Assembly (NCBI GenBank): GCA_950022655.1
Contig: OX465583.1
Coordinates: forward strand, 36,669,360-36,733,359
Source of the DNA: Alentia gelatinosa
Lineage: Eukaryota; Annelida; Polychaeta; Phyllodocida; Polynoidae
Direction of reading: 5' to 3'
DNA length: 64,000 nucleotides
Below, in pieces: positions 4,076 through 62,500 of this stretch (position 1 is the first letter of the stretch; the number at the start of each line of letters is the position of its first letter). The position numbers were made by a program, and so were the translations under genes. The notes under the pieces are model-generated. The model was given only the letters and a program-made list of their open reading frames with translations, made no database searches and was not told where the DNA came from.

Positions 4076-4099
4076 AGGTCAGAATTTTCTTATTTTCAA

Positions 4100-8399: not shown

Positions 8400-9415
8400 C
8401 TGTGAAAAGTCAGGCTTAGCCGTCATTGCATGGTAAATGGTCAGAGAGTTTGAAACTTTTCCACGGTGAAAAGTCAGAGCTTAGCTGTCATTGCACGGTA
8501 AAAGGTCAGACATTGACACTTTTCCACGGTGAAAAGTCAGAGCTTAGCAGTCATTGCATGGTAAAAGGTCAGACTTTGACAGTTTTCCACAGTAAAAAGT
8601 CAGAGCTTAGCAGTCATTGCATGGTAAAAGGTCAGACTTTGGCACCTTTCCATGGTGAAAAGTCAGAGCTTAGCTGTCATTGCACGGTAAAAGGTCAGAC
8701 TTTGACAGTTTGGCATGGTGAAAAGTCAGAGCTTAGCAGTCATTGCATGGTAAAAGGTCAGACATTGACACTTTTCCACGGTGAAAAGTCAGAGCTTAGC
8801 AGTCATTGCATGGTAAAAGGTCAGACTTTGACAGTTTTCCACAGTAAAAAGTCAGAGCTTAGCAGTCATTGCATGGTAAAAGGTCAGACTTTGACACCTT
8901 TCCACGGTGAAAAGTCAGAGCTTAGCTGTCATTGCACGGTAAAAGGTCAGACTTTGACAGTTTGGCATGGTGAAAAGTCAGAGCTTAGCAGTCATTGCAT
9001 GGTAAAAGGTCAGACTTTGACACATTTCCACTCTGAAAAGTCAGAGCTTAGCAGTCATTGCACGGTAAAAGGTCAGACATTGACACTTTTCCATGGTGAA
9101 AGGTCAGGGATTAGCCATTATTGCACGGTAAAAGGTCAGACATTGACACTTTTCCATGGTGAAAGGTCAGGGCTTAGCTATCATTGCACGCAAAAAAGTC
9201 AGACTTTGACAGTTTTCCATGGTGAAAAGTCAGGGCTTAAGCGTCATTGCACGGTAAAAGGTCAGACATTGACACTTTTCCACGGTGAAAAGTCAGAGCT
9301 CAGCAGTCATTGCATGGTAAAAGGTCAGACTTTGACAGTTTTCCACAGTGAAAAGTCATTGCATGCTAAAAAGTTAGATTTAGACATTTTTCGACATTTT
9401 TCGACATGTTGAAAA
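8400..9415. repeat. 63-bp minisatellite with 252-bp higher-order period
   Basis: About 15-16 copies of a 63-bp unit. Each unit is made of two related half-units of 32 and 31 bp (GGTGAAAAGTCAGAGCTTAG and GGTAAAAGGTCAGACTTTGA). In the middle, four units form a 252-bp block that is repeated almost exactly; compare the sequence at 8521 with 8773. Because 63 is a multiple of three, one frame stays open for 328 codons. That ORF is a by-product of the repeat and I do not call it a gene. The array lies near the right end of the transposon. Confidence 0.9.
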
Positions 9416-29500: not shown

Positions 29501-32500
29501 AATGGGATAATAATTTCAGATTTAATTCAGTTTGATTTCATTGGACTGAAATAGAAATCAAGTTGTCTTAGAAAACAGGAACAACATTCTTCTTTTTAGA
29601 ATACTCTTTTTCTCATTTATGGTAGGCATTTTATATTTGTAGCTGAGTTATTTGTCAACAACGAATCTCTGCATATATAAGTGTTGTCCTAAAAATATCT
29701 CATGTTCTTTTGGTATTCACTGTCGTTTTATGAAAATCTAGCATACCATCACGTATACATTTACATGTATTTTTGTTTTTGAGCACACTCTTTATTCCTA
29801 AATATTCAGCCATAGAAAATGTATAGTTGTCAGGACTGATTCAATGTCAGTTCTCTTTTATTTTAGAATACGGAGGATAGAAAACCTCGAGGCACTCACA
29901 AAGCTAGATGTCCTAGACCTTCACGGGAACATGGTAAGGGACATTTAATTCCTAGTCGGAACTGCCTTGTTATTTTGCTTTGACCAATATCAGTCAGTTT
30001 TCTTTTAACAATAGCTATGGAACAGGAAATTATTACATCCCAAATCCCAATAAATCAACCCTCGTCTCGTGTTTTACGCGTGAGGAGAATGTCAATGTTC
30101 AGTTTATACATATGATGCAAGTTATTAGCTGGTGGACGGTTGGTCTTACAGGTTCTAGGTTTAGCCTACTGTAGTACATTTGCTTGTAGAGTCATTTGGT
30201 GACCTGACCAAATTTTTGCTGTGAGTTCTTTATATCCTAAGCACATGGCATAGTAATGCAGGCAACTTCCACCAGTGGTCTCTTTGTATTGTATTGGTTC
30301 CTATCAAGGATTGACACATGCCTGGTACCTATATCCTTATAAGAATACTAAATTGAATATCTGTTTGGAGCTCAGCCTAGCTTTGAATATGGCGCATGTA
30401 GTATGGCCAACTAACACCAGATGGCATCATAACTTAGGTTTAGACTTGCACTTGTATTGAGTTTTAGATGCGTTCACCTGCTAATCTGGCCTTTAGGGGC
30501 CAATAATTTTATTTTGAAAGCTCTTGTTTAATACCAATATTGAGTTGCATGCTGAAAGTGGAATTCTAGAGTTTCAGTGCTATCGATCGATCATTCAGAT
30601 TCCAGACACTGAATATATTGTACACATATATGAATACAAATGTAATAAAAATTAATATTCATTAATTATTTCACATTTGATATTTATTATTTTTTTCAGA
30701 TTACAAAGATTGAACACCTGACACACCTCACAGAGCTGAGGGTGCTGAACCTGGCAGGGAACAGCATTGAACACGTGGACAACTTAACAGGCATGGACGC
30801 CCTGACCGAACTCAATCTGCGCCGCAACAGAATACGCACCGTGGTAGGTTATCATAAACTGCAAACATTAATGTGATGTGATAATGATTTTTACACTTGG
30901 TTTTTAAGAGTCTGTGTGGATCTCGCCTCGGAAAAGGAATCTGACCATGTCGAGTATAACCTCCATTCAGTGGTTCCGACAGAACTTAATACTAGATGGC
31001 GTGACTAGGAAAAATAAAGGAGGTGTGGAAACGCCACCGTCAGAGGACCCCTTTAGCATCTGGAGCTTCCGATAGTTGCTCCACAGTGTTTTTTGTTGTA
31101 TCTTTTTAATTCAGTGAGTAGAGACAAATACAATCGTCCAGAGATTGGGACATTCTTCCTTGTACTTGATGAACAAATGAAGACACGAGACAGTTACATA
31201 GGTGTGCGTGCACAAACAAACATGCAGGTGCCACCGTTAAAACATCAGAAAATATCAGGGGGGGGGAGGGGAATCAGAATATGATTAGGAACAACTCCTG
31301 AGAGCTATTTTCAATTTGTTACTATAAAGAAATGGCAAAAATAAGTAGAAACTATACTGTTGACGTTGGGACCCTTCCCAAATATCTAGTATCAATTCCA
31401 CTCATATTGCTTAGAGTAAAACGTTCATCACCTGACGAGACTAATTGAGAGTCGAAACCACAAATCAAATACTCATTAAGAAAATATAACAGAAAGCTGA
31501 AGTAGAGTGACCAACTTCATCTGCAGACAGCTTCAGTGAAGAAACTTTAGTTCTCAAATTGCACACTAGGAGGAACCACTGTGCATACCATCCCACACAT
31601 TCCCAACGGAATCTGTACTCCTGGTCAATAAATGTGAATAGTTCATGCACAGGTATATATGATAACAACTGTGACAAACTCTGATATGAATCCCATGTAG
31701 AAAGAAATACCTTTTGGTAAGTGTTCAGACAGCATACCTAGACCATCCTTTGTAACAGGATACGTTTTGTAGAAAGTACTTGTGAAATAAATTTGATCAC
31801 TGCAGTCTAAAGTTTCATGAACTTAGATCTAAATACATGTACTGTTAAGTACTTAGCAAATGTGAAATACCCATCCCATATTACGGGATGTAAACTCTAG
31901 TGTCAATAACACTGAGTAGCTTATCATATGCTAGGAAGTAGAGAGGATTTGCGAATGTAAGGTTACATGGACTTGGATATACAAGTGCGTGATGGTTAGC
32001 AGCGTGAAAGCTCTGTCTCTGATGTGGCTGGTAGTGACGCCTGGTGTCAACAAATAGTACTATCCCGACCGCTGAGCTTACTTTATTTTGTCATGTGACT
32101 GATCTACGGAGGAGGAATTCCCCTATGCCCGATTCTCATACTCATATCTCAAGAAGACAATGATGTAACGTACATCCAAATTAAAAAGATTCATTGTATT
32201 ATATAGAGACAAAGTTAGTGTGACTGAATGGAATCTGTTCAGAAATAATTTGGAAAGAAATACTCACCGAGTTCGAAAAACGAAGTGAGTATTTCAGGTG
32301 AACGGAATGTGTCCTCCTGGTCAGTAAAAGTAAGACATTCGCCTCAATATTGATTTATAGTGAGCATTAGTGTAACATTTACCATCTCCATAAGTGGCAC
32401 TGACAGTTGCTTACACCCTAGGAAGTGTCATTATTTTGGTAAATTACATATTTGATGTCCTATTTATGTATTTTTTCTAAGGGGGGGGGGGGAGGCAGCA

Positions 32501-35500
32501 GGTGTATGAGTGGATGGTTTATTCAGGATATTTACACACAAATAGAAGTCAAAATGGTTCATAACTTTGGTCTAGGAACCAGTCAGGACCCAGTCAAATG
32601 ATATTGGTTTTTTTAAATTATTTGCAGTATCATTTACCACCAGATATTGACTTGACCTACTTAATTGGTGTACATAAAAACAAAGTTTTGTCCCCCATAT
32701 GGCTAGGGAGCATGTAGACAGGTCTGTGTGCACTCATCCATGAAGTTATCACCAACTACAAAACGTTTGTATGTAGTTTGGTCATTGATGATTGGCAATT
32801 GAAATCGCCCTCAGGTATCTAAATATATGTGTGCATTGATCCATGAACTGCTGAGTTCACAGAGAAGTAGGGCTTTAAATATCCAATCAATGCAGGCCCG
32901 TCACTATTCATGGATATCCCTCCCTCCCTCCCTCCCTCCCTCCCTCCCTCCCTCCCTCCCTCCCTCCCTCCCTCCCTCCCTCCCTCCCTCCCTCCCTCCC
33001 TCCCTCCCTCCCTCCCTCCCTCCCTCCCTCCCTCCCTCCCTCCCTCCCTCCCTCCCTCCCTCCCTTCATTCATTAGAATTAAGATATCAAAATATTTTCA
33101 TTCAACAATTCTAAACATGTGTTAAGCTACTTGTAGTTTTAAATGCGTCCACTTGCTTATTTGGCCTTTTAAAAGCCAATGATTCTATTTGACTATGCAC
33201 ACTTGGCTCTTGTTTTAATGGAAAGACTCGTCTGATATAAAGGCAATGACCCTACAAAAAGTCTCTGTTCAAGGTGGACTGAAATGTTATATAAGATTGT
33301 AAATTATAAATTTTTTTTTTATAAAAATCTTAATTTAATTCAATTCAAATTATAATTTTGATTGAACTATACATTTCACATTTGACAAACTTTTAATGAC
33401 CTTCCTCTTTGTCTTCCTCACAGAATGACGTCGATAATCTACAAAGTCTGCAGCGGTTGTTTCTCAGCTTCAACGAAATCACCTGGTAAGTCATAAAACT
33501 TGTAGAGCTTGACTCGGCATTATAGTCAACAATATCTCACCTTTCATCTCTTTCCCACTTCCAAATCTCACATACAAATTGAGCTTTAGGATAAAGGCGT
33601 GATTCTCTTTATCTTTACCATCCACCTAATACAAAGTGTCCGTAGAAAACACATGGGGAATCTGTATGGACATACCCTACGCATACGGATATGTTGTATG
33701 CTCTGGGTGGCGCATATGGAAAAATAGTGCGTATGGAAAAACAGTGCATAACTAAAACGAACTGATGTCGACATGCCACTTGTTCAGAAAAGGCGGATAA
33801 TAAATAGAATATAGACTGGTTTCAGATAAAAGCGGTTGTATGCTCCTCGGAGTTGACTACGCGTGAACTCCTCGGAACATATGGCCGCTTGTATCTGAAA
33901 CCAGTCAATATTGGGCATGAATTATGTCACGATCCTGCCCAGGCCATGGCTAAAGCAACCCCCTCCCCTCTACCGATTAGGGCCCAAGTGTTGATCGGCA
34001 CCAAATGAAATGAAGAATTTGTAATCGTAATTGTCTAAATCGTTTCAATGCGTTTTCTTTTATGTAAAGTGAATTCTTTACAGCATTATTGAACCTATTA
34101 TAAAAATGATTTTGAATGAATCGTAAACAGGAATTATCTGGTTGTGAACCAGATAGTACGGATGATACCGCTCAGAGTAGAAATTTAGGGAAGTCTATAG
34201 ATTTTCAAATCCCCAGGTTGAAAACATGAATAGAAATATTCGAAATCTGAGTACTTAATCCTGTGTAATAATAGAGAAGGTATAATTCAATGGCTACAGG
34301 CCATTTATGAATAGATATGATTATTCATGGTTAACACATAATATATATCGATGCATTTGATACAGTCATGTTTAATAACTTATGTAATTTTACGTAATGC
34401 GTGATGATTTATGATAGATAAAGATGTGCCCTGTCATCATATGACAATTACCATATATCATATATCCATATACCTATATATTATATATCCACTCATATCC
34501 TAGAAACTGATCATGATTCGACATAAAATTGAGCCGGGTTACAACAGCTCAGTTCAATATGTTCTCGGAGGCAAATAACAATTTAGCAGCAGGCAGCGTT
34601 AGCGATCCAGATATATGCAATACACAAACGTAGACCACCAAACGGGCAGAATCAGCCTATTTACCTAGCTATGGTGCGAGTTCATGTACAGGAAATTAGG
34701 GTAAATTAAAATATACCGTCCACATGGGACTTTAAAACCGTTCAGCATAATTTTTTGTCTCATATCCAAGTTTGGAGGTTCATTAATTGTTTTACTAGGA
34801 AATTTGAGAGGACTCCAAGACAAGCAAAGAACTAAAACCGTTTATCATAATTTGATTAGATCAGGAGTTATCAAACCTCGGCTTAATTCCTATGGACATC
34901 TAACATAGTGTCTTGGAGTGGAGTCCCATCTGGAAGGCGGGCGACACTAGCGTCTCCTGTCGGTACATATATAGGGAAGCCTATATAGGTGCGGACCAGT
35001 TCCAATGCGTCTTTAGTTGTCTAGAGTATACTGTATATCTTGGGCTTTGCCTATGAATTATACAACATGCTTGGCCTTACAATAGAGTCCCAAGCCATTT
35101 GCAAACACCAGACGTCCACGTAGCAAACATGCTGAAGGAAGCAAGTCACACGAGATCTCGCACTTTTGGGCGTGAACTAATCTAATCACGTCATTTGATA
35201 TCGTACCCTAAATTAAGTCCACATTGGTTCGTAAGATTGCCTTGTGGTGAACAGAATGTTTGCATTATAAGATCAACATAGTTGTACCCTACAGTAATTG
35301 CATAATTTATATAATATTCATTTAGTTAAACAGTGAGCGGGGCAGTGTTTTCAAGCTAGTACCCTTAGAGTTCTTGACTCACCTCTTGAATCTGAATTAC
35401 ATTGTAGTCTGGTAAGAAGTGATGGGAAATTCATGAAATGAATTAATCGGAGGTAATACACACTCCATCTGTAGTGGATGGGATTAACAGATGGCGGATG

Positions 35501-38500: not shown

Positions 38501-41500
38501 CAAGTTGAAATATGCTATTTGTGTTACTTGCATCGACATAGATTTCCAGCCCTGGAGGCAGTACCTGAGGTCTAAGGAGGACATTGGTCGTGAACATAAT
38601 CAGCAAAGTGGTCTGGTATATACAAAATCAACCAAACTCGCCCCACCATTGAGCAGGAACTAATGCGCCCTCCTTCCCGCTGGGTAGCGCGACCAGCAAC
38701 AGGGTGATATTAACAAATATTTACCTAAGTCGCAGCTTAAGCGTACAACACAGCCATCTGCTAATGGTGGTAATTGTTACGGATTTGCCGATTGTTTTGT
38801 TGGCGGAGAAAGGGTTTGAATCAAAATCAGGTGTGGCTTGATGATAAAGGCCATGTGACCACTGGCAGGGGACTCTGTGTATGGATCTGTACCCACAATG
38901 CAGCAGCCAAGACAAAGAGTGTAGAATTTACTCTCACTTGCAGAGTAGACTGTGAATCTGACGTCAATACACTCTCCCCCCACAATACCGTCCCATCCAC
39001 TCCTGCAGACGTCAGCCTGAGTGGAACTCGGCTGGAGATTTCACACTTCAGGTGGAGTGCTCGTATGAGGTGCTGGATGGTTGGCTATGTCAGCGAGCCC
39101 CTGCACCTCTGGACTGCGGCCGTCTAAGGCACAGATCTCGTGGTTAATTAATGAGCTTTCTTGATGAGCGGGAAGGGTCTGCCCCGGGGTCCCCACGGGC
39201 CCCGCGCACGGAATGTTTTCACATGCGAGCAGCGCGCGTAGCGGCCGCCCACCGCTGTGCGGGCGTTGTCTGTGAACAGCCACGGAGGCGCATCACAACC
39301 AGAAACCGCCGTGTGGCCACAACAACAACATGGAACTTTATCTTATACACAGAAGACAGACTCAAGGAGTAATACTGACTTAGCGCAACTAGGGATTATA
39401 GGGTGGAGGTTACATTTTTCTGAAGAGATATCAACAGAAGAAGTTAGCAGTTAAAGGGGGTGTTCCACCACCGCGATCGTGTCATTGGCCCAGTATCATA
39501 CACTATCCTAGGAGTATCTCGCTGGATCATTCGCCATCTTGCTAGGTCTACTTGTGTGAATACCCTATAACACAAGTGGCATCCTCATCTCCCAGATGTC
39601 CGTTCCCGAGCGGCTCAGTGCCATCCCGGAAGTCGAAATGGGTTACGCCAAGCGCACGGGCGTCGTCAGCAAAAAGCGCCACCCGCGGGTGACCAGAGTG
39701 ACACCTGGTGAGACGGTGGTGAAGCAGTCCCTGGCGGGGCTGACCCCGGTGCTGGAACGCTTCAAGGAGCGTCTGCGTCTTCTCGACTCGGCCATCCAGC
39801 GCGCGGAAAACACCAAGCAGACGACAATCGAGGACCAGATTTCCAACAAGGAGCAGGCCACCACCGACCTGCTCAAGAAGTACAGCATGAACGTGTTCAG
39901 TAAGTTGAGCGCCCGCCGTCCGCTCGGCCACAAGGAGACGCCGCACCAGCTAGCTGCCGAGCGGCAAGTTATCAGAGCAGAGCGAGCTGCCCTCCCGCCA
40001 AACCCCGCCGCCAACGCCACCAGGGGGCGCCAGCTGCTCGTCCCCGGAACGCTGACGTCCATCAACAGAGCAAGGTGAAGAGAAAGGTGAAGGTCACACA
40101 AGGCTTTGGTTTCAAAGGTTACCTTGTGAGGACGCTAGTGACAAGTCAGTAATGATCTATTTTCCGATTATTGTTGATATTCATATGAAAAGTTTTATAC
40201 CTATGACTATACCTTCTATGTACACTACCTTGGTAAAATTGTTGATAAGACTATCCCTTTGCCTTCGCAATTGGGATGATCTAATTGACAATCATACTGT
40301 ACAACTACAGTAACTCCATTTCCATATGTTATATATTATACAGATTTATATGTTTTACATGTATATAATACAGATATTGTATTTATCCTACCCCTCATAT
40401 ACATCTCCATAGACTTAACATGGTGTAACTGTATGCCACGGTTATGGCATAAAATATTTATATGCCACTGGTGACATATGAAGTTAAAAACATGTAACAG
40501 GGTAGGATAAAATCTAAACATCACTCAATTTCATATAATTGTTTATATGCCATTCTTTGTCTTCCGCTACAGATATCACTCAGCTCCGCTTCGTGATATC
40601 ATGCTGCGAAGACAACTCATGCCATATAAACAATCATATGAAATTTCATGATGTTTCATGATAATATTATACATGTGTACCCTCTTTTTTCAACATCAGT
40701 TTTTCACCTGTTTCAGACGGGTTTTAAAAATACTGGTTGAGAAAATCTCGTTGAATTAATTATTCGTGACCGTGTTTTTATTTCCTGGTTACTTTCTCTT
40801 ATTGTTTTACGATTGTTTCCAACATAGCTCATGCAGCACTGATTTCAGCAAATCATACTTGTTTTATGATCCATGATTATCTGATGAGGCAAAATACGTA
40901 CTACATCCAGCTTGATACTACCTTGAAATGGCCTACCTTAAAAACGGAAAGGTTTATGATCCACTTATTACAGATGGCACTGCTCTTCCTACTTCGTGCC
41001 CATTTACCATTTACGCAATTATTGTTTTAACCAATAGTGTTTCCTGATAATTGATGTTGAAGGTTTATGCCTCAGGATGCATTTCACGAGCGATACCTCG
41101 AACGGCATATACATGTTCATGGGAATATAAATGATACCTTCAGGTGTTTCTCGTCTTGGGAAATGTGTAGAAACTTCATTTAAAGAAAAAGAAAATCTCG
41201 ACTCTAGAGAAGTGTGTTCTGCCATGTGTTGTAAATCACGAGAAAGATGTTGGAAATACAGGCTACAAATTTTACACTTACTTTGGATGCCATAAAGGCA
41301 CATAGTCTCGTGATGCTTGACCTGCAGGATAAAGTTTGATCAATTCTCCATTTGCACCAATTTACAAGTACCCATCTCTAAATGGCGTGCTTGGAAAGCA
41401 TCTTCCAGTTAAGCCTAATTTGCAGGAGGATGTCAGGTGAAAGTGGGCATCTCTGCCAAACAAGGCGCTCGGCTTTGTGGGTTGTTGGTCGTCTTTCTCA

Positions 41501-44500
41501 CCTCCCTGGTTGGCGTTCATGCATTATCAATGCAGTACCAAACACCCACTGCTTTACGCAACCAGTTACGATCGATTTTGATAATGAAGGCAGTTTTTGG
41601 TAATTGAAAAGTTAAGATATCGTAATCCTTTTTATTTCCTTATGTTGAGACTAAAAGGAGAACTAATTTGGGAAACCACTCCAAAATGGATTGTGTTACT
41701 TCAGGAAGCTTTTAAACTTAGACACTTAGAACTCTTCCCTGGATTATTGATAACGGGTACGTTCTACTACACTGATACTTGATAACATTACTGGGGTTGG
41801 AACATAATTTAACAGTAGATGGCAATACCATCAATACAGCAAAAGGAGGTGCAAAAACGGCCATATCTGGTGCTAAAACTGGCTTCTGTGAAGCAATAAT
41901 CAGCCCACTTAACCAGTGTACGGGAATTCAATCTCATGTAAAACCTGAACACATTAAATACTGAAAGTGAGGGGACACAAAGGCTAGAGCAGATTAGGGA
42001 ACTATTTACCGATACTTCTTTTGTATCAAAAGCTATTGAATTTTGCAATACTTATATAGAACTCATGGAATACATATACTAGTATAGGAGCTTCCAAACA
42101 GCCCAGGCTTCGGCAGGTTGACAGTTTTGCACTCTGGTGTGAACATGGCAAAGCTCGTGTTGAAATCCGTCTATCAAAAATGGTGACATGAAACCCATAC
42201 AATCTATTGAATATTGAATGGTGCAGGGCTGCAGAGTGGAATGTCACAATGAACCGTCTCCATTTATAGTAGAACTCTGGTTGCTGGGCTGAGCACCCGT
42301 CCTGCCACTAAATCTGCTTTTTAATGTTTATTTCAACGAGATAAGTATGTTACCTTTTACATAGGGCACTTTGACTGAACTAGAGGAAGCTCCGCCTAGT
42401 GAGATTCTACTGCACTAACAAATGTATTTTTGATATACCCGACAGTTAAATCTTGCCTTGGTGACTACTATGCATGAATTCAGGGGATTTAGGAAGTGTA
42501 AATTTGGTTACTTGAAGACTGGTACTATGCCACCACAATCTGGTTTAGCGAGTTAAACCGAAGATGCCTGTTGCCACCTTGTGTATGAGGCTAAAGGCAG
42601 TGCTCCACATTGCTGATTCTTGTTCTCCACCCCATCTCCATCCATTGTCCACCCGTTCTTAACCTGTGTTCTTACCCTAATCGGTGGTACTGCTCCATTA
42701 TCGCTCCACTCCCGCAAGAGTGTTTTTGTCAGTCTCTTCTCAATCGGCACAGGATCGGAGCACTTGCTCCACTGGGCTCCATTAACGCGATCGTGGAGAC
42801 TGTCATGCCGTCCGGTGGATTTTTGCCGCACTACACACAATGAATGATTTCCTCGTTCAGTTGCTAGAGGGCAGGTGAACTGCACCCTGCTATTTCTGTC
42901 AAAGGGGATCGATTTTTTCTCTTTTACAGTCAGAATCCACTGATTTGGGCTAGACTAGACCAAACTAGACCCTTATTTATTTTTTTATATAAAAAAAACT
43001 TTGTCTGCTTTCGGGCACTGCCACTACTATTGGAGTGGCACAGTGTCCGCCATCCTGGATTTGTACGGAAGGTTGATCGACAGCTCTTCAATTTCTGCTG
43101 AATATTGCGGTTAATTGAATAATGCAGGTAAATAAAGATAAGTGTTGATGTTAAGAATGTTCATAGCACACTCTGGTGCTAAAATTATGTCCAATCTTTC
43201 AAAACTGTCTGAAGTTTGGGCCTCTGCTCACAGGTTTGCGGGTACCACCTGGAATCCCTGACTGCCTCCCTTGCAGTATAGCTGGGGAAGCAGTCAACGC
43301 AGTTGCCAGCAAAGTTCATTTGAGAGGGCACCACATATAACATTTCTAATGACATATCAAGCAAATCTTCCCTGAGCAGTAAAACCAAGCTGAATGGGGC
43401 GATGGTAGTGCGATCAGTGAAAGAACTAGTCAAGAACCGTCAAAAATCAGTGGAGGTCGGGTGCAGATGATGTGGAGATTAAGTGCCGATGATCAAAGCC
43501 CTAGCTCCACTACAGCTCCATTACCAGGAATAGGAGGCAATACACCCACGATCGGCGTAAGATCAAATGATCAGCTCATGATTGACCTTCAATCCACTGT
43601 AATGAAGCACCACCTTAAGAAACATATTGATGAATGTTTAGTCTGTGTCCCATTCGCCATCGACTTTGGAGCATGCAGAAATATGAACGAGGCAATATGA
43701 GAAGGCGAACAGGGACTCAGACCAAACATAAATATGTTTCTGATTTTATCTTAACCTGGAATTATTTATCTGTTTATCGGCCATTGAATAAGAGTCACTG
43801 TAATCGCAAGTCTGTTGAATATGAGTTCCTAATGTTAAGCCTATGGACGTTTATATCCGGTTAAGATGAATCACCATATCTAACACAAAAACAAAACCAG
43901 AGAGACAACAACTCATCAGAACGACAATCTGTCATGAGCTTTGTTAAAGTGTCTGGTAGGCTGGAGTCCTTATCTAGAACAGTCCTGCCTCCGATTGGCA
44001 GATCTTGTATAGATTGATATCACTTATAATGAACATACCCAGACTAAGGCCGGCAAACCAGCAAGTGAGCCAATATAGGATAATTTCTACGTGTAGGTCT
44101 ATGTAAATTTGGATGTGTGGAGATCTGGGGTAGGGATGGAAAATATCAATGTTCGCAGTGCGGTTTTGATCAAATACGAGCCAGCTTTAAACAAAACTAA
44201 TTGAGTGTAGGTATGTTTATTTACCAGTGTAGGTATGTATATATACCAATAGGATCTATAGTTTCCAGATGGTGACCACATAGTTACACCAGAAATACTA
44301 AGATTTTATTGTCCATAAAATGGTGTCACAAACCCCATCAAACCTGCAGGTGATGAATAATGGAGTAGTGCAGTGAGCAGTATCTATTTACCAAGAAATC
44401 CGTTTTTGATGTACATGAGTTTGAATAACCGTAATTCGTAATTTCATAAATATTTGAACTTATATTTGAACCTAAGGTGATTAATAGGCAGAATAGAATT

Positions 44501-47500
44501 GCAATTAATCTACCATCTTACCACTAGAATACAGTTTAGTTGGTAGATGTATTGAATTGTGAAATAGCATACGTCTTTAAAATCTAAATCCAGCTCTTGT
44601 CCACCTGGTGAACTGTTCTTATCTTAACCCCCCTGCGTTAAAACAAATAAGTTTCTCATACTGAAATCAGAATAAATCTGGGACTTGGCATGTTCAGAGC
44701 CATAGAATATCTCCCCCTGATGCACCGTTGGCATATGAAGCCTCTTTCCAAGTTGTCATGTTCACACAAAGTGTTGATCCTCATATAATCCCTATTCAAA
44801 TATTGAAACATGTAAAACATCTAATCTAGACCCACAAAGAACTAGAAGAGATTTCACGACAGGAGGTATTATCCCACCAAGGCTTTAACCAGCTCAATAC
44901 GTGATATAATCCCGTTGATGAGGGATGGTGTATGGCGCTATATATTGCATACTCAAGGTGTATACCTACATTACGCCATGCTTAAGAGCCCCTAGTGAGT
45001 TCATAGTGGCACAATGCCCCACAGCGGTGGGTCTGTAGTCGCCAAGTGTTTAGATCCCTCTTGGCAGGCGTTGATCCTGACCCAGGCTGTCTCTCCACAT
45101 ACTAAGACGCTGTATAATCCATTAGATTAATTAATCCATTGTAAACCTCCCCCCCCCCCCCCCCCCTTAGGAGGACCTGGTCCACCACCTCCAGTACCGC
45201 TCTGGGTACGTGCTCAGTGGGTTGGCTGACCACTGGTCGCCTTCCACTGACCACTAGACGACATTTTACCGAGCAGACGACATTTTTGTTTTTCGCCAGT
45301 GCGTGTCAATTGACTGAGTTTTCCCGCCAACAATACCAGTATCCATCTGCTGTCTGAGTGACACAGGAGTTTATTAATCTGGAGAGCCATGGAGGACGAT
45401 GTGTTTACATGCTCCAGGTACGACATGGAACAACCAGGATGATTGGCTCTTGGACTCAAGAACTGTGAGCAGACCTGTCGTATAGGCGATGGGTTTTGTG
45501 ATAGTGCGTCATAGTCAGGACACCCATATTTACGCTACTCAATGAGTGACTCATTATCAATGCAGTTCCACCTACGTGTGACGAATACACCTTTTCGTCA
45601 TAACATACGTTTTCAATGACATCAGCCGATATTTTTAGTAGTATCGGTTATGTTTCCTGTGTTATATTGGGAATAGAGCTTCATTATCAAAAAAGATAAG
45701 CTCGGTTTCTTTGGCCTATGAAACATGACTCAACATATAGTTTGGTTAATGAGATTGCATTATACAGTGTCGTTAAACAAATGTGCAGTACCTCTGCACT
45801 AGAGAAGATCATGTTACTGTGCCGCCATATGGACTACTGCCCTCCCTGTGACTTGATCTGTTGATGGCTCGTGGGTGGACCTGATGTGGTGTATAGGAGA
45901 CCATTGGCATAGTGGTATGTCAGAGAACCTTGGTTTATCCAACACAACATAACCAAATCACCAACTCTCTGGTCGTCAAGTCCACGTAGAGGCGCTACCT
46001 TTACCAGATAATCAGAACGACATCAAAGATGCCAGAATATAAAAACTAGGTCATAGATACCAGACTATATGCATGAGAGGACAGGTAATAAGTCACTGAT
46101 ACCATGTCATGGATGCCAGCTACAGGAACCTAACCAAGCCGAGGAAATCCAGTTAAAGAGTATCTGTTAAAAGTCGTCAGACTACAATCACATACCCTCT
46201 AATGGAAGAAATCACTCCAACCGACATAGACTCTGATCAAGCCTGGAACACTTTAACAAGCATCACGTCAAAGATTGGAAGCTGAACATGCTTGTACCAG
46301 TCACCATACTGCCGATGCTTAGTGACCAACGCAAGGCTATAATCATCCTGCTAGAAACGCCAGGTTGGACTCTCCAGGTGAAAAACGTTGTAGTTCACTG
46401 GTGTTAGGTCATTTACACCTGGACAGTGATACCAGACCACAGGCACCACAAGACAGAAATCACTGTAACGACCTCCTGTATGTATATATGGGAAAATACT
46501 CCACAGGTGGTGAATAAATAACTGCAGGATGTATCGCCCGTTGCGTATGACGCGCGCCGATGCCCAGGAGATGATCGGGGCGGAGAGTCTGCACCTCTAT
46601 GTTCTGGAGGTGAAGAAACGCCAGATGTCGCCACGGGTGCCCGTCCACCCGCGGGACCGGCTGGGGTCCCGGTCGCCCGCCCGGCCCACCACGCCGGTGG
46701 CCGCCGTCACCGAGAGCCCCGAGCCGAGCGTGGAGCCGCCCCGCCCGCCCGACAGACAGCTGCTCAGACGGAGCCAGCACAAGGCGCACAAGAGGTTAGG
46801 TCACCGATCTGAATTATTTAATCAATTAAAGATTTCCTAGCAAACAAAATACTCTCGGAAATGGGGAGGGGATGGGTACCCATCATTGCAACATACGCCC
46901 CAGTGGATAGAAATCATATAGCCATTTTCAGGATATTGTATCATCAAACTGCCTGAATATTGTCTGTTTTCTGTCTTTCATTTTAGGTAATGTAAATTTC
47001 CTTTGCCCACCAGTTATATAGAAGAATTTATTGTTTCCATCAGTAGATGACATCTATTTCTAAGTTGAAGTCACACGTACTCAAAATATTTAGCGCAGTG
47101 TAGCAGGATTGAATCCTATCAAAATCCATTCAAAATTTGCACGTACCATAATGTATGGGGCTGCCTTTCTGGATACTTTTTGATAGTATCTGCTCAGGTT
47201 TATGAACCCATAGAAACCCTTGCTATTTTACTCATTCTAGAAGTACTTAACCAAGTGAAATACAGCACTACATGCATTTAATTCTTTTTTCGTTATCATT
47301 GAAGGGTGTACCAAGCAAAAATAGTTTACCCGTGGTTCAGGAGGTTGCATTAGAAGTAAGCTTTGCATACATAGCCTAGGATTTAAAACAAAAGCTTTGC
47401 CGTTTTCACAACAGAGGGCAATGCAGTTGACCTGCCAGAACCCTGGGGCCGCTTGGAGACTCCTTATTAATTCACCAGAGAAAATTTCATTTCAATAACT

Positions 47501-50500
47501 TTTGATCTAATTAAGCTATAAAAAAACGGTTTCCAGACGGATTCGTGGTCAAGTAGGTGACTCAGATGTGACTGTTTTCATAGCTCCTTTTTCCACATCG
47601 ATGTTAGTGCCATCTCGAGTTCTGTTGTAACCTCCGTATATAAGCTGGTTATATATACATGTACATGTTAGTGATTCTAGCAGGGCGGTCAAACCATGAT
47701 CCCACATACATACAGGGACTATAAACCAGGTTTATCTGTTGTTCAGGGGAGATATTACCATAACTAGAGACAAACCACTGACTTGGATTATTCATAGCTC
47801 CGTGGACAAACAAAACATTTTTATGAAAGAATTGTATGAGTGATTAAAGGAGAGAAACACAATTTATGAATGAAACAAATGTAAACTCAACCAAGAGTTG
47901 CTCATTTTGGGGTAGGTTTTTGGGGTTGCAACCGAATTATCTACAGTTGCATTTGGAAAAGTAAGTCCATTGAATTCTTCCTATACATAGTCGATTAAAT
48001 CATTACCATATGGCAGTGACGGGCTAAAGTCCCCACAACCCAAACCTACAAGTAAATATACTGTATTTTCGATACATTGAAGTCCATATAAGTTATCGTA
48101 ATACGGGAAGTATTCACTATAGACCAACATGCCAGTATATACTTGGCATAGTGTGATTGCGCTGCTACGAGCACCCCACGCTGAGAACAATAATCAACAA
48201 AGACGGCCCGACCCAAGCGACCTCTGACGGGGTGGCGTGGCCTCAGGTTTGACCCATCATCCAGGTGCTAATTCTGGCGCACGCCTGCTCGTTACAACGG
48301 CCATGAGAACCTCCAAAGGGAACGGAAAATGCCCTTTTCCCACGCTACTTTACTTATTTATTGTGTAGATATGTTAGAACTGAGAAATGGGCAATGACTG
48401 ATGAATATCAGAAAAAAATATTTTTTTTAACTCAAAACCAATATGATTATCACTCTCCTGGATTGAATTGCTAGCGATCGAATATAGTTTTATCTCTGGT
48501 GTCTTTTAATGGTTGATATACATAACTAAATATTTGCTGGGAAGTAAAGAAACGAGACAGTTTATACTTTTTCTAATATAGTAGAGATTGAAGCTTTCCA
48601 TTTTTCCTAGGAAATCATGTTTTCATTTGAAGTAAATATGATTTTTCTCCCCTTATGTAAAACCAAGACGATGTTATTTGAGCCTCATTCCCACCAATGA
48701 ATCTGTATTGAACCTCCACACAGACCCTCAGCTCCACGCCATGGCCAATACCGACATGTTTCCATGTTTTCCCTGTCTCCCTGAGGCAGCAAATTCCGCA
48801 TAAAAAATATAATAACTTTTTTCAGTTGACATCCATGAATGTAGGGCTGCACTTAGGCTGCCAAAGGAGATTTAAGAAAGTGGGGCTTGACTCGTTCACT
48901 GATAAGATAAAGTGAAGATGATTGAACAATTGCAGATTTATTCCATAGCAGAAGTGGGGAGAGTGGAGAAAGAAGTTGCGTTACTATAAAGTACATGTCC
49001 CCATAAAAGCTATGACTTAGCCATCGTGGTCTAATATATAGTCAAAAGGATTTGAGTCAGGATGGGATGTTGGAGGTAAGATTTTAGTCAGAGTATAGGT
49101 AACACATATTGAAGGTTTGATAAAGTGATGACTTGCTACATTTAATAAGTGGAATATAGTGCACCACTACAAGAGGAACGCTGAGTGAGTTTTACTATAG
49201 TGGTCAGATCATCTCAGTATTAGATAAAACTACTTTAATGACAGTGAAGTAAATAAAGGAGAAGGCAGCGGTGAGGGACTGAGGTGTTCGTTTAGGAATT
49301 TATAAATACATGAGCAGTAGAAGAAAAAACAGTGCTGTTTAAATCTCTGACATTTAATGATGAATCAGGTTTACACAATCCTGTTGAATCTAGGATTGAA
49401 TCGGAGATTCAAGTGAACTCCGCACGGGCTGTGAACCAGTGAGTGTGAGGGGGACCAGTGGAATTGATTGTTGACATACACGTATAACTGACATAATATC
49501 ACTGGGTAATTTCAAACTGGCTTCGCTGTCCACAACATGCACTACCATGTTCAGCCAGTCTATGTCCCACCATGGGATTAAAGATAATCCACAGCAGTTC
49601 TAATCAAGGTCGGAAAATCCAACTAATGTTTACTCAGGCGTGTCCATGCAGTAGCCCCCCGGGGAATTTCATCTTAAAAGAGTTCTGGATCTTATTTTTG
49701 AGTAGTTGTACTTACCAGAGCTGATCAGTCTCATTAGGGAGTAATGTTTTCATTATTCACATGGATGTATTTTATTATTTAGATCGGGTCAACTGAACAA
49801 AAAGTTTATATATATCGCATAGGGTTAGATTGGTTTTTTTTTCAATATTTTAATAGAGTATAACTGGATGATTTGTTCTCCTTGGTAAATTAGCAATCAA
49901 CAGAGGAAGCTGAATTTGCATTCGTATAAATATTGTAAATTGATAAAAGAAAAAAATAATTCGAATTTAAAAAAAACCCCGCATGTATTGTGATCTTTAT
50001 CTTTCCGGCTTCTACAAGCAGTTCATACTTAGAACTGTCATGTAAACAATTTCGTTAGACTTGAATGTCAAGTCACATTCTACTAATCAATTTAATCAAA
50101 TATGATTGATTTGCATCCTGAATCCCAAGACATACTACTGGTAGACTAATTTGACAATAAATGATTGATGTTTATTTTGAACCCCATCTTGAATATGATA
50201 AATGCAGAATATCTGTGTTTGGGATTTTAGATCTCACACTTGTCTGTTTTATATCAGACTCAATTCCTTAACGACAACCTTTGTCGGATAGAGGTTTCAA
50301 AATTTACAAAATTGTTATTAAGGAAGAAATAATGGATCAATAAACATAACATTTTCACAGAATATTATTAAGAAAAGAAATAAAAAGTATCAAGGGTGGC
50401 ACATCATATCACATGATGAAGAAGTCTAATTGTGAGTTAATATGGCAAGATGCCCTCCCCTAGCGGTATGAAGGGACACTTGCGCCCCACCTTACATCTA

Positions 50501-53500
50501 GCCATCCTTTTATAAATCCAGTCCCTACTATACAAGCGCATATGCCTAGTGCCCCCTAATCATATCCACCAATAGAGTGTAGAATATCTCGAGGAGTGTA
50601 ATGGTTGGTGGACTAGTGGATCGTTGGGCTTTAGTTGGCGCTATGGCATGTTCACACATATGTGAGAATGGGTTCCCTCTACCGTGTAGCTCGGCGAGCT
50701 CATGTGTGAGTATTCAGAAGAAACTCAATGTGGTCTTGTTTCTTGGATAAACAACCCAGAGATGTCAAAGAAAAACAGACCCGGGCATTCTCTGGGCAGT
50801 GTGTCAGGTTTTGTGTAGCTACATGAGCCCTGAAGGTGGTCACTGCTGCACCAGTCATTAAGTAGTATAATGAGTCGTTAGTTATAAGGATTTGTTATTG
50901 TTTAATTACCTAGATTTTGACGATTGGACCAACAACGGCAAAAAAAGGCTGCATTAATATAGAAGCTTTGTACTGTACTTTGTCAATGAAAAGAAGATAT
51001 ACTGAAAGCAATAAATGAATCTACTTTGACGTAATTCATTAGAATCCACACACCCCTCCATTTAAATATGATGTTTTATAGAGCAATTTCCAAGTCTACC
51101 CTTATTTGCTCTAACCCGATGTTTAAGTGAACATCATAACATTGTCGAATAGCATGCTCCAATCAGTACCTATAATGCCAAATGAAAGGGCCAGATAAGG
51201 TCAAACACTTGGCGTTTGCTAGTCAGTACTGGATGTTTACAAATAAATTAACAGTAAAAACTCACTCGACGACAAAGGATGCAGTTTCGCCATGCACTAC
51301 ATTGAGTTGACATAACAAGAGTGCAGTTTTTATTTACAGATTTTCTTTTTGATAAGGTTTGGTCCCAAGTCCAGCATGGTATTTTATTTCAGCGTGACAG
51401 TTGTGAAGAAAAATGCGCAACATCAAACTGTAGCATACTGTTTTTTTCTCATAGAATTCCATTAACATGGAAATCTAAAACGTGGGTAGATGTGATTGAA
51501 TTCGTTATTTCAATTTGGTCATTTCTGTAGACTTACAGTGCTTCCATTTGAAATGAAACTGGTTCGGCTGAAAATATCCTCTACATTCATAGCACTCCAT
51601 AATCATTAATGACTTTAATGCATGCCCCCAAAAAGGTATGACATTGATGGTTTGAAGTTTGTAAAGTATCGTACATTTTTCTCTCTTCACTGTTCCATAG
51701 TAAAGGGAGAGAGAGAAGAAACACGATAGGAAGTAAGAAAAAGTAGATGAATTTTCCAATGCTCTCAACCTCTGACCTTATGCTTAGTGTTGTCGTGAAA
51801 TGTCTACTTACTGTTGAGTAAACAAAACCTTTCAGGGGAATTATGTATCGATTCGCGGAAGGGAGAGACGGGTGATCTTGGTTTGGAAGGGGAAATAATC
51901 TAGAGCTACTCATAGTTTTTGTTATTTTCGATCTGAATTGATGATTAAGTTCCTCATGTAATGAGTATGGTGCGCTTTTATAACAGCACCATAACCATGG
52001 CCATGCGGTTTTCATTCACACAAACGAAAAGAGGGAAATTCTGGCTCATCGACGGGTAATAATCTTGAATCGCTCAGTTTATGTTATTCTCAGTTTCTCG
52101 AGTAAATTCTTTATGTAATGAGAATGGTCGGACTTTATAACAACACCATAGCCATGCATGGGAATGGAGTTTTCATTCATGATATATGTCGCCAATTTAC
52201 GGATGTGTACACAGATATTTCACTAATGGCAGTCAGTGATAGCCCAGTATACAAGTCAGTAGAATAGATCTAGATATCACCCTAAAACTGTGACAACAAT
52301 GTCTGTAGCTAACTAACCAACCATTCCCAGCCCCCTGCATCTCCCATACCAAATGGCCTTTCCCCCGCCTGGTCTGGGACCAGGTGGGTGGTAGGGGTAG
52401 GGGGCAGTTGGCAGGGGAGGGGGTGGGGGCTCCCACCTGTACCAGGGGAGTAAGCTCAGGAATGCACGCGCTAGTTCATTCCCAACACAGGGAGGTGGGG
52501 CTGGCCACTTTGCTCACACAACTTTCACACGAACAACCCCATGATAGACACTGATTAAGTTCATACGCACAAGCCATAGGATACCTCAGCCTGGTTCTGT
52601 GTAGCACCGTTCCGCTATTTCCGCGTCGCACGGATCGCCGAGAGTCTCAGCAGACGACAATTGTCGCCAGTGACGTCACGACGATTGGAGATGATCACCA
52701 GCGCCGTTCAGATAAGGACATCATAACAGGAGGATTTACTGATCTACACCCACAGGATTAGCCAAGTTCTGACCAACCAGACTTGAGTCGTTTTACCCTG
52801 TTATCTACCACTCAAGGATTCCTGTGTGTTCACAGAATGCTACAGGAAAATGGAAGAGGGATTCCAGGTTACTGCAGGCGGCGTATCTCTGCTTCTCAGT
52901 GGTGATAGATATATGTCACGAACCTGTGTGATCTCAGTACATCCAAGGAGACATTTCATTTTGCCTACCGTAATGCCTAATTTTTAATCCTAGTTTTGTT
53001 GTTTTGTTTTTTTCAAATGTGATACTGGTGTATGCGTATAGTATACATTTGAACCCACAAGGCTTATATTACCGCAACTGATGAAAGAGGAGCTTTTAAC
53101 CCGGAAAAAAAGAGAGAAAAAGTGAATTGACAACTGGTTCAAATGGAATTTATGTTGCTGTTATCAATATTCACTGTCATACAGAAACAATTCGATTAGC
53201 AAAGCCGCTTAAATGGTATCGACCCTGCTTATATACGGGGCCTAGTTTATGATACGATAAGGATGTATCATACATGGGGGAATACATCATTTGTATGTTG
53301 AGTAATTTCAACGTGATATGCTAGGTGCACATTCATTGGAGTTACCCTAACCTATACGGACGGCCATGCTATTACAAACCAGATACACAGAGATTAGAAG
53401 TGCTTCATGATTTAACCGTGTGATCTTTAGCACACGTTATCCCTTTTGCTGGATGTCTAGAAAGAAATAATGACCACACGGAATAGACAGGACGGATGAT

Positions 53501-56500
53501 TTGTTCCTCCTTATGGATAACAACAAAGCCGCCCCGTCCTTCCTATAGAATTTTAGATGCAACCGCAATGACTGCGTGACAACAGCTATGAAAACATGTG
53601 ATATGTCATAGAACTCGCCATTCGCCAATGTCTTCTGCTTCTGTACTTCAAATGCGCTCACCAGGATACAGTTCTATATGTGATACCATCACTGACTTGT
53701 ATCCAGATACTACTGGACCTGGAACAAGTAATTCGTGCCTGCAGCATGCCTTGAGTTGCTCCAGAAGCACAAGGCGCCTACCATGTGAGTGCCCGTGAGA
53801 GAGACGCACACACTGCACCATGTCGCGAAACTCGCCGCTGCCGGCGCCGGCGGCGGCGGAGATGGCCAAGTGGACGTGCCTGTTCCCGGCCTACCACCAG
53901 CTGGAGGTGCGGGCCTCGTGCCCGGCGCCCGACGCGCGGGTCGACGTGCGGTATGCGGCGCGAGCAGCTCAGCGCGTGCACGCCCCGCCCACCGGACCCT
54001 TCTCCCGCCCGGCGCGCGGCAAGATGATGGCCCGGGCCAGCTACACGCGGTAAGTCAGGTAGCTACTGGGTAACACCGTAACTGATGGGAGCGCAGGTAG
54101 TTAACAATGGCACTGCGTCATCACGTATATACTGTGCTTTCTCTGTGTCAACTTTTAGACTAAACAGACTAGAAATTGTAGCTCCGAGAATCGGTTTTTG
54201 AGTCAAAGATTATTCTTCTGTGTGTCTGGAACTTTCTGTGGGACACCAGGCTCAGAAATAAGATTCTCTATTGGCCGCTTCTTGTACGTGCATGTTTGTA
54301 TCAAGCCCCTCCACGCATCCATTGAAAATGGATATTGCACTTGCCTCTACTTCTAACAGCTGTAGACTGCGAATGAGTCCCAGTCATGCTCTGTATATAT
54401 ACATAGGGCATATAGCTATCCAGTCATGGGGTCGGTCATTTGCCCCCTGACACCAAAATTAAACACCAGGTGGCGGGTTTGCTTATCAATAGATTATGAT
54501 AGAGGCTGGCCCCGACTATATTGGCGCCATCTTCAGGGGTGGCGCTGAAACTCATCCACTCTCCTGACGGATTACCAATTAAATAAGGTTGCTCTATGCG
54601 CTATAGAGAAGAGAATGTCATTAGGGAATATTAGAAGTCAAACTGATTGGAAAATGTTGACCATAGAGATAAGCAGATGATTATCAGCCTATATTTTTAG
54701 GCAGCTCTAAGTTCTTCCCTCCCCACCCTCCCAAATAAAATTGAGGCATTTTTATTCATTTCTACCTTTTTTTCGAAGTGTGCCTTTTTTATATACAGGC
54801 CCCCAAGACGTCTTCCTAATCGATACAAAGAGTGACTTCGGGAATCATCCGGTTCAGTGGTTAAAGCTGATAGAAATTTCTTTATTTGTGTGCCCCATCC
54901 TCAAAGGAAGAAACCCACTCATATACAAAAACATGTGTAACCCAATCCTGTGAGAAGCCTTTCAATGATATGTGACATTGAACGGCCGAGGTGGTTGCTG
55001 GCATTATGTTTGTGTGATGAAAACCCAACACAAAAGGCAAGCTAAATATTGCAGCGTCAATGTGTCATTGAAGATGAAAGGAGTGACAATGGTCATATAA
55101 ACTTAATATATCTTTCGTTTATATAACCTAAAAGCCCTCTGTAAGGAGGGTTTTGAAAAATGCATATAGTTCATGGTTGAATGACCTTGAGTCGAGTCAC
55201 GCCTCCACACTGGTCGCTCCGGGCCAATTGAGAACTATAAAGAATACTGCAGCCAAGTAGAACTGGCCCTGGTCACGTAGCCCTATCAGAGTGGGTGATA
55301 CTGTTTATATATCAGCTAGATTAGGTCGTATGATGACATGAGGCATACATTAATCAATATAGAACCACCGCTCCCTCTACCCCCACATAACCCTCCTGAA
55401 TATATGGATTGCAAAATATAATTTGAATTGGTTCTAATTTCATAGAACTAATCAAAGCTTGATTCGAGGCTCACTTATTGTCACTGGGAAATAAATCGTT
55501 GAGCTTACATGTTATTGTAAAACAGGCTAACAGAACTCTGACGTGTCGCGTGTGATTGTGAATCACGTTTGGCTCAGTGAGGCGTATCATGGCCTTGTGC
55601 CCACCAGCAGATCAACCAGATCAGTCTTATCACAACACACACCAGCGGGCAATCACTCTAATCAACACAGGAGATTTAGACAGGGTTTTTATAGAAGAAT
55701 CTACACGGGATTCAGGTGGCATTGTAAGCTTAAACAAGTCATTCTGTTTGAGTACCCGCCCATTCAGCATTACAAAAAGAGTAGTTTAAATATTTTTATA
55801 CGTGAAGGTATATGTCCATGAGATATGCTCATGTTGCCCGAAGTAATCATGTAGGATACCCATAGAAAACATTCCAATTTGTTATCAGTATCCTTTCATC
55901 ATATAAAAAATACAGATTCTGTTTTGAAAAAATTATCATTATATTCTTACCCAATTGATACGGAAATGCTTGACCTCATGCTTTGAAGTAAAATGAAAGC
56001 TCATCTTCTTTGATTGCCATTAATGGGACACAGTACACACAACTTTCGAGATGCTTAAATGCATTATTCATTTGTTGTGGATCGTTACTGGCAGATGCAT
56101 TTCTATATAGCATGATGGTGATAATTGTCCTTGATAGTGATCAATGATTTGTATCTTTTTAACCCGGGTTACTCTACCCGAAACCCTTTAACCCTTCACC
56201 AGCTGTAACCCTTAATGTTAACACTCACATATTCAAACCCTCTATATGGGAGGAAGAATAAAATCTCAACCATCAAAACAAAATAATTGCGACCAAGACA
56301 TTGAAATTTCTTGAAATTAATTTCCTTTTTGGTGTGGGCCCTTACTGTCATCACTTGACAACAGAATTTCAAGGGGTATGTCATGATTGGTCTCATTTGG
56401 ACACATGAAATACTATTTAAAAAGGAACTGCCCACTAACAACTGCATCTCCTAGCGCTAGCAACTCAAGAGGTCATTAAGCACGTCCAAAAACATACAAG

Positions 56501-59500: not shown

Positions 59501-62500
59501 ACAAAAATCATTGAAAACTATTGAAAATGATAATTTGGTTTAAAAGACGAAAAAGGCAATACCACCCACAGCTAGCAGCTCAATAAATTGCTCCATTTAT
59601 TTTTGTATCCATTTGATGGAAAAAGCCATATGAGGAAGAGCAACATGGAGTCTAAAAAGAAAGTTTGTTGGCAGTACGAGGCAAAGCCTGACTGTTCACC
59701 ACAAACGCTACTGTGTGAATGTCGTTTTCAAGTGAAAACGATGACGCTGTCATCGTTGAAGGTTCGCCTCGCGACATGACATCACGATGTCAACATCACT
59801 ATGGTAGCGATGTGGTGGGGTTAGTTGCTAAGCTGCTGGTCGGGATGTCAACAGATAGGGGCAACTTTGATCTAACCGTAATGGTTACGGATAGAGCACG
59901 GTTTCAACAAGTGTTTCCTCAGGCGTTTTGCTGTGGGTGCCGAAGCACACGGTCCTGTCCAAGTGTGTCCGAAAAAAAGAAAGTTTGTGTTGACAGTTTG
60001 TGTTTTTGTATCTTTGTAGTTTTGAGGACATGGCGTGTGTGGGAGAGTCTCACAGCCTGTCGGAGATCTCGCTGGATGGAAACCCGTTCTCACAGGAGCC
60101 ACAGTACAAGCAGACCGTGCTGCGCCACATGCAGCAGCTGCGTCAGCTCGACATGAAACGAGTCTCAGTAAGTGCTGTAATAATGATAATGTACAGTCTA
60201 ATTATTCTGTAACCATATCAGGTGGATGCTTTTTCGTTTGGGTTAAGGGATGGTGAAACCATCACTGTCTACATTACAGTATGGAGGTTGCACTATCTCC
60301 AGTATGCCTTTCTATTTCTAAATAGATTGGGATGGGCCTAGATGAATTATCTCGGTCCCAAAAAAGTGATAACATCACATACCTTGACCTAGCCAAACTA
60401 ATTAAGATGCCTGAAGAGTCCGAACCGGATGAAACCTTGACTTATTCCCCACCAACACTGTTAAAATAACAGCATTCCACCAAGAAATCTGCTTGGTGTA
60501 AAAATCCCCAACATTGTACTGTGTTGGAGAGTGAGAACCCAAGGTGGCGGCGATTGTTGTTACATAGGTAACGATTGTTAGCCTGGAGATATCATAGCAA
60601 CCTGGTTCAAAAGGAAGTTGTCATTATCAAGGTAGCATCGGCTTATTACAGAGGTGTCATAGCCACGTCTTACTAATTTCTGTAACCATATCAGTGTCCT
60701 TTAGTCTCAACTCAACTTCCCAGTCTCCTTAAGTCAATGTCTCTCCATACTAGTCTCCTCATATCTTTTTCTACCAGTCTCCTCATGTCTATCCATACAA
60801 GTCTGCATGTGTCTATCCATATCTGTATCCCTACTAGTCTCCATATATTTATCCCTACCAGTCTACATGTATGTCTATCCCCACCAATCTCCATATATTT
60901 ATACATACCTATCTCCTCATGTCTATCCATTCTAGTCTCCATATATCTATCCCTACCAGTTTCCATGTCTATCCATCCCAGTCCCTCATGGCTATCCATA
61001 CTAGTCTCCATATGTCTATCCATGCCAGTTTCCTTATGTCTATCCATACTAGTCTATGTACTTCTATCCATACGTGTCTCCTTATTCATCATCGTTTAGA
61101 AAATCCAAATTGAAGATGTATTGAGCCATAGTAAACCACTAACAATTTTTTCTATGTTGTCAGAAACCATAGCCATTGATTACGGATTTGAAACCCACCG
61201 ATTACGGCCTCAAAGCCATTGATTACGGGAAAATACACTCCCCAAAAATATTTATAGTCCCATCTTGCTGGAGAGCAAAGTAATAGTCCCTAATGACATA
61301 CCCTGTAATACGATCATACCTGTGTGCCGGCCATGCAACGCTCCTTTGCGTTTAGAACATCTCCCACTACACTGTCAGGTGATAATGGAATGCAGAGAAA
61401 AATCCCGGAGGAAAACAGTGGGCAATGTTTTCCACAAGACTGGAAAAGGTGATTTTCTTGAGTTCCTTCGGGAAACCAAGATTATCTAAAAGATATGAAT
61501 AAGTACACAGTATTACCAGGATTTTGATCTGAGAGGCGGTATTCTCCGCGTAGTTGACACATAATAAAACGTCAAGCGATAGCGAGGAGTATTGCGTAGT
61601 GTCAACTACAAGAAGAATATGAGCGCTCGGATCGAAATCATGGTAATGTTGTATCTATTACTCACCTTTCGATCAGAACAAAATCTTGTAAATATTTAGA
61701 AATTCGACGTTAGCGCCATGCATTTTCATATAAAATATAGTGCCCGTCAGGTGGCAGAAAAAGCTGTATTCTGCTGATTAGATTCCGGCTTTCCTGAATC
61801 TACTCAGTAGCGATAATTCATAGGTTTAGTATGGAGACTCCGTATTAAGTGGGTAATAAAGAGTATCCCCTGTTAATCATCTCCAGGTGATGACCTCATC
61901 ACTGTAGGGTTTAGCTAGAAATGCTAGAACCAGAGAAAGTCTGGTAAGTCTTAGATGCTATTATCGGACGTTAAATAACGAAACCAAACCAAATCCTGGT
62001 TTTAATTTATTTAGAAATCGGATAATTTAAATAGAAATTAAAATTTTGGTTTTGTAGACAGGTGGTTCTAAATGCTTTTGTATTACGACGTGTCAACCTC
62101 TTCGTTTACGACCGCCTGTCCACAAAACCTTGGGTTGTTGAATATATCTATGCATAACGTAATTATATATATTATATGTACCAGTCTCCAAGATCTCACC
62201 AGAATCTCAATGTTTTACTTAATCACACAGGATGACGAACGGAGGATCGCCAGCGTCATGGCTCGAAAGGAGGAAGAAAAGAAACGAGAAACAAACAAGG
62301 TGCAAGTTATGAAGGTAATGATGAATTTGACCCCAAGATCTTGGTTTGGTATTTTAGTGGTATGTCCAAGTATGTATTTTTTATAGGAAATGACAAATGT
62401 AAAATTATTTCCAGGTGGGAGTTGACCAACTATCTCTGTGACGCATTTAAATAGTTTCTACAATTACCATAGATACTACATTGTGGCTCTCCACTATCTT

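Follow-up and report, generated by a model that had tools for sequence, protein, structure and literature searches.

Three candidate alternative first coding exons in a long intron of the LRRC49 gene of the polychaete Alentia gelatinosa

The 64,000 nucleotide (nt) stretch of Alentia gelatinosa DNA analyzed here (assembly GCA_950022655.1, contig OX465583.1, positions 36,669,360 to 36,733,359 of the forward strand; hereafter the window, to which all coordinates refer) carries the 5′ part of a gene for LRRC49, a protein with leucine-rich repeats (LRRs). One LRRC49 intron contains three isolated GC-rich open stretches, termed A, B and C, that are probably alternative first coding exons of the gene. 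Their presence had been proposed in an original prediction made from the nt sequence by a model, and all three were found again, each with an ATG, an in-frame stop codon less than 40 bases upstream and a phase-2 donor. In the list below a slash marks the border between exon and intron.

39596..40074, + strand: exon A, proposed alternative first coding exon; 159 codons and 2 bases, donor AAG/GTGAAG, phase 2
46529..46794, + strand: exon B, proposed alternative first coding exon; 88 codons and 2 bases, donor GAG/GTTAGG, phase 2
53820..54049, + strand: exon C, probable alternative first coding exon; 76 codons and 2 bases, donor GCG/GTAAGT, phase 2, GC content at third codon positions (GC3) 0.92

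The ATG codons are at 39596, 46529 and 53820, and the upstream in-frame stop codons at 39557 (39 bases from the ATG of A), 46511 (18 bases, B) and 53796 (24 bases, C). Thus none of the three requires an upstream coding exon.

The host gene was mapped with a human LRRC49 sequence that is not a database copy. The resulting model is of the animal type and consists of 14 collinear exons that encode a whole protein of 694 amino acids (aa). It shows 49% identity to this human sequence in an alignment of 624 columns that spans model residues 84-691. Residues 1-83, encoded by the candidate exon at 25771-26020, are unmatched in this human LRRC49, and this is the least certain stretch of the model. The exons in the window are as follows.

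25771..26020, + strand: candidate LRRC49 coding exon 1; GC-rich, with an ATG, a phase-1 donor CAG/GTACCG that fits 27997, and a serine- and histidine-rich peptide
27997..28102, + strand: LRRC49 coding exon 2
28759..28962, + strand: LRRC49 coding exon 3 (LRRs)
29867..29933, + strand: LRRC49 coding exon 4 (LRR)
30700..30843, + strand: LRRC49 coding exon 5 (LRRs)
33424..33485, + strand: LRRC49 coding exon 6, the canonical upstream partner; donor CTG/GTAAGT, phase 2
60020..60167, + strand: LRRC49 coding exon 7, the proposed common acceptor exon; phase-2 acceptor, end of the last LRR and LRR cap
62231..62299 or 62314, + strand: LRRC49 coding exon 8; phase-0 acceptor, either end keeps the frame open
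63455..63630, + strand: LRRC49 coding exon 9

Outside the window the gene continues with five more exons. The exon at 60020 does have the phase-2 acceptor described in the original prediction, but it had been numbered there as exon 8; six coding exons, not seven, precede the long intron, and it is coding exon 7. The intron that holds A, B and C extends from 33486 to 60019. Its length of 26,534 bp agrees with the 26.5 kb first given for it, and the remaining 12 introns measure 281 to 4,673 bp.

The coding signal was assessed by collecting the 403 stop-to-stop open reading frames (ORFs) of at least 50 codons in the window, keeping those with a GC content above 0.48 and ranking them by the contrast between GC3 and the GC content at second codon positions (GC2). 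Among the best 26, A, B and C outrank every other intron ORF and fall among the LRRC49 exons. For each of the three, 4000 Markov sequences simulated with the same dinucleotide steps included none that attained its contrast. However, two antisense ORFs over LRRC49 exon 3 outrank B and C, and the contrast by itself is therefore no proof of coding.

Relatives were sought by a protein search of 5.8 billion sequences. Two were found for A, at 58% and 59% identity (E values 1.8e-42 and 3.2e-36), and one for B, at 55% identity (E = 9.6e-18). The relatives of A have the same initial Met and share with it a long common block, SLAGLTPVLERFKERLRLLD..AIQ.AENTKQTTIED. In B, 35 of the first 36 residues are identical to those of its relative, and the conserved block begins at the Met in both sequences. 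The ORF lengths are also alike, with 160 aa for A and 169 and 185 aa for its relatives, and 103 aa for B and 105 aa for its relative. The better A relative and the B relative both list 1,960,264 bases as their longest contig, and because of this shared value A and B are probably linked in another genome too. A pattern search for the DNA of the relatives in viral and prokaryote contig sets gave 71 and 74 matches, none confirmed. For C the protein search returned no relative; six candidates shared words with it and none of them gave a score. Conservation of the three peptides, which the original prediction had put forward as a check, thus holds for A and B and was not found for C.

Conservation supports A and B as coding sequence, and codon periodicity does so for all three. 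C, for which codon periodicity is the evidence, may encode a protein under selection. That C alone may be non-coding GC-rich sequence, open by chance, with only A and B as exons, is a quite improbable explanation that is compatible with the other readings. The missing relative agrees with it, as do open frames of the length of C in 1875 of 4000 simulated sequences of such GC content. However, the difference between GC3 (0.92) and GC2 (0.64) in C was equaled in none of 4000 simulations, and the donor at the end of its ORF ranks as one of the three best of the 1,545 intronic GTs. Chance ORFs as a general explanation were rejected for A and B by the relatives, and for C by codon periodicity.

In a search of the genome (1.23 Gb, 101 contigs), A (residues 1-101, E of 0.001 or less) gave a strong match at its own place only. 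The strong matches of B and C are likewise their own places, with the next best at E = 6.86 for B and 0.59 for C. The repeat families listed for the intron at a minimum length of 30 (one direct, two inverted) do not overlap A, B or C. A mobile element or repeat family as the source of the three is thus unlikely. In tblastn searches of the window A, B and C showed no match to each other and only weak matches elsewhere (E = 0.12 or worse). No spliced retrocopy of LRRC49 was found in the genome, where the exons at 60020, 62231 and 63455 match their own places only.

The next LRRC49 acceptor 3′ of A, B and C is that at 60020, and all three donors share its phase 2, as had been predicted. Joined to it in silico, the frames stay open to the LRRC49 stop codon and give proteins of 581 aa (A), 510 aa (B) and 498 aa (C), or 576, 505 and 493 aa with the other exon-8 donor. 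The retained part of LRRC49 would begin in the last repeat. It has an LRR_9 match at the cap (7e-08) and, in the C-terminal half, a second, weak LRR_9 match (E = 0.014) that is under the Pfam cut-off. The proposal that the N-termini are exchanged while the LRR cap and C-terminal region are kept is thus borne out as far as the fused frames are open and in phase; the splice to 60020 itself is inferred from the phase and the open frames.

Donors were scored with a rough, general position weight matrix that was not trained on this genome; its scores serve for ranks and base rates only. A, B and C score 3.42, 2.32 and 6.01, inside the range of 0.9-8.9 of the 12 LRRC49 donors (the better of the two taken at exon 8; the other, at 62299, scores -0.1). 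The chance of about 1 in 27 that had been given for three fitting phases is based on an unsound null, because the donors were selected by eye, and both A (39707, phase 1, 5.26 against 3.42) and B (46609, phase 0, 3.13 against 2.32) contain a GT in another phase with a higher donor score. A further GTAAGT inside A, at 39899, is in phase 1 and scores 1.1. In C the chosen donor outscores the other GTs. Conservation with the relatives of A and B extends beyond the inner GTs at 39707 and 46609. 3′ of the conserved part, A and B each have two GTs before the stop codon, and a good score is obtained for the chosen donor alone. These two observations give the chosen A and B donors better support than the 1-in-27 figure.

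The donors of A, B and C sit where the coding signal ends. In A and C the stop codon lies inside the donor (AG/GTGA and CG/GTAA), such that the unspliced ORF ends with R followed by the stop. Phase-2 donors that overlap a stop codon were counted on both strands of 104 kb. Among 11,901 stop codons, 150 (1.3%) have such a donor with a score of at least 3.42, that of A, and 28 (0.24%) one with a score of at least 6.0, that of C. The overlap occurs in 5 of 228 ORFs of at least 70 codons at the A score and in 1 at the C score, A and C themselves included. If a phase-2 GTRA donor has been kept in the relatives of A, they are therefore predicted to end in R at equal spacing. Both do end in R, and in a MAFFT alignment the R is exactly 7 residues past [VI]PGT[LM], with mostly unlike residues between. 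In B the frame continues for 14 codons beyond the donor codon, and the local alignment to the relative stops at the donor (HK.HKR).

The placement of these ends also bears on a different explanation, namely that the three stretches are separate genes nested in the intron, either intronless or continued by their own downstream exons, and linked to LRRC49 by position only. Nested genes are common in long introns. For A and B the relatives are ORF predictions of similar length, the terminal R of A is kept in its relatives, and ATTAAA motifs lie 31 bases past the B donor and 409 bases past the C donor; these agree with nested genes. However, all three stretches share the LRRC49 strand, the low base rates given above apply to the A and C stops inside phase-2 donors, and the B local alignment ends at the donor. 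After A, neither AATAAA nor ATTAAA occurs until 1.9 kb further on, and no other listed intron ORF with GC above 0.48 equals the coding contrast of A, B and C. Independent nested genes are on balance judged unlikely, although they are the most serious of the alternatives considered.

Promoters for A, B and C would lie inside the intron. A scan of the three for TATA and X-box sequences, with general consensus sequences that may not be those of the host, revealed no common pattern. An acceptor directly precedes the ATG of A, with 71% pyrimidine; only 6.9% of 1,624 intronic AGs reach 70%. Because of this good acceptor, A may be preceded by an untranslated 5′ exon and thus be second in the transcript. 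The possible acceptors before B and C are poor (35% and 41% pyrimidine) compared with the 59-88% of eight LRRC49 acceptors (exon 2 scored at 27998 instead of 27997).

These acceptors are pertinent to a further arrangement, in which a single alternative N-terminus is encoded serially by A, B and perhaps C (e.g., A-B-60020), or B serves also as a cassette exon from 33485 to 60020. In-frame entry into B, from A or from the canonical upstream exon, would be possible by way of an AG at 46526-46527. B would then be an exon of 267 bases, phase 2 to 2, and joining A to B at 46528 and B to 60020 leaves a single frame open for 670 aa (665 aa with the other exon-8 donor). The low pyrimidine content before B and C speaks against such use. 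In addition the conserved block of B begins exactly at the Met in both sequences, for which an internal exon would have no need. The serial arrangement is considered very improbable.

Structure modeling by AlphaFold2 predicts one helix in A, at residues 49-106. The predicted local distance difference test (pLDDT) block means are 88-95 for residues 51-100 and low elsewhere; the overall mean is 66.1 and the predicted template modeling score (pTM) 0.27. For B, two short helices are predicted within the first 33 residues, the conserved part, followed by an uncertain tail (mean pLDDT 65.4, pTM 0.28). A Pfam search with A and B gave nothing better than E = 0.16, and a PDB search nothing better than E = 0.5. 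Remote relatives in solved structures or Pfam were thus considered and none was convincing. A and B look new as protein modules.

The reading of A, B and C as alternative first coding exons of LRRC49 is thus favoured, and is held to be reasonably probable. Consistent with it are the common strand and the length of the intron, 26.5 kb against at most 4.7 kb for the other 12. Transcripts would begin inside the long intron, or reach A by way of a 5′ untranslated exon, and the phase-2 donor of A, B or C would be spliced to the acceptor at 60020. The resulting proteins would retain the LRR cap, a charged linker and the C-terminal region, LRR_9-like and helical. In place of the N-terminal repeats, A would supply a long helix, B a short helical motif that is conserved and is followed by a structurally uncertain tail, and C a short peptide that is basic and rich in proline; A and B may act as N-terminal docking modules. 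The likely role would be that the part belonging to the tubulin polyglutamylase complex stays, while N-terminal binding or the destination of the complex changes; we infer that it is by its C-terminal half that LRRC49 assembles into the complex. A wider proposal is that LRRC49 has become, in one lineage, a variable-first-exon locus, with an LRR form and three forms that carry old, conserved, unrelated N-terminal modules on a common C-terminal half, and that these direct one polyglutamylase complex to several sites or tissues. This wider proposal is tentative and is held at somewhat less than even likelihood.

Several points weigh against alternative first exons. The support comes from sequence, and the relatives of A and B are predicted proteins, which show neither donor sites nor the position relative to LRRC49. 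A plain stop codon would likewise account for the R-stop end that A shares with its relatives. One of the A relatives, P0002, is on a contig of 1,611 bases and its end may be no true stop; furthermore, tblastn pairs an earlier VPGVL of P0002, and not its IPGTM, with the VPGTL of A, which breaks the equal spacing. The B donor is weak (T at +3), and the matrix behind the donor scores is a rough one. A global alignment of B shows a match of four residues, RSEL, just past the donor after a gap. At the donor the relative of B reads R-S, and splicing at the same place would need a GTC donor, which is rare. The ATTAAA past the B donor, at 46825, suits a short independent B transcript. Finally, C lacks a relative in the protein search and A, B and C lack a common promoter motif in the TATA and X-box scan.

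Repeated sequences are present both in and around the gene. The long intron has two imperfect inverted repeats, at 33808-33912 and 40516-40656, with arms of 49-50 bases that are 82-84% complementary and resemble foldback elements. A perfect (TCCC) array of 37 units, at 32917-33065, is situated shortly 5′ of the exon at 33424, and a diverged 24-base tandem array, at 60737-61085, is in the intron 3′ of the common acceptor exon. Elsewhere in the window, positions 2572-4641 consist of 7.4 copies of a 201-base tandem unit followed by 2.7 copies of another 201-base unit, which by eye resembles the opposite strand of the first. A 63-base tandem unit is repeated 15.2 times with 89% matches at 8402-9358.

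The way in which tubulin polyglutamylases select particular microtubules is poorly understood. If the favoured reading is true, the exchange of conserved N-terminal modules on one subunit of the complex would offer a simple and testable means of aiming it. LRRC49 would then also be a protein whose N-terminal repeats can be uncoupled from its C-terminal half, and A and B would be modules not described before. LRRC49 is named together with TPGS1 and TTLL5 as a subunit of the tubulin polyglutamylase complex in PMC11189303. The canonical model of 694 aa described here resembles LRRC49, with 49% identity to the human sequence used over 624 columns. Alternative first exons and intronic promoters that alter N-termini are already well known; for LRRC49, the accessible portions of the open-licence literature searched describe no isoforms with N-termini like those of A, B and C.

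The first exons in variable-first-exon clusters are generally duplicated, similar exons. UGT1, GCNT2 and the clustered protocadherins are variable-first-exon clusters (PMC1885805 and PMC3325998). The arrangement proposed here is like these in having several first coding exons joined to one common set of exons, those of UGT1 each having its own promoter. It is unlike their tandem arrays in that A, B and C did not match each other in tblastn and lie mid-gene, behind a canonical upstream part. The short forms of dystrophin are further products of internal starts. In ADGRB1/BAI1 an internal-promoter isoform arises from intron 17 (PMC11711277). A start in a late intron that leads to a changed or missing N-terminal part would be common to these two genes and to LRRC49. 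Unlike them, LRRC49 would have three different coding N-termini in one intron, from putative promoters.

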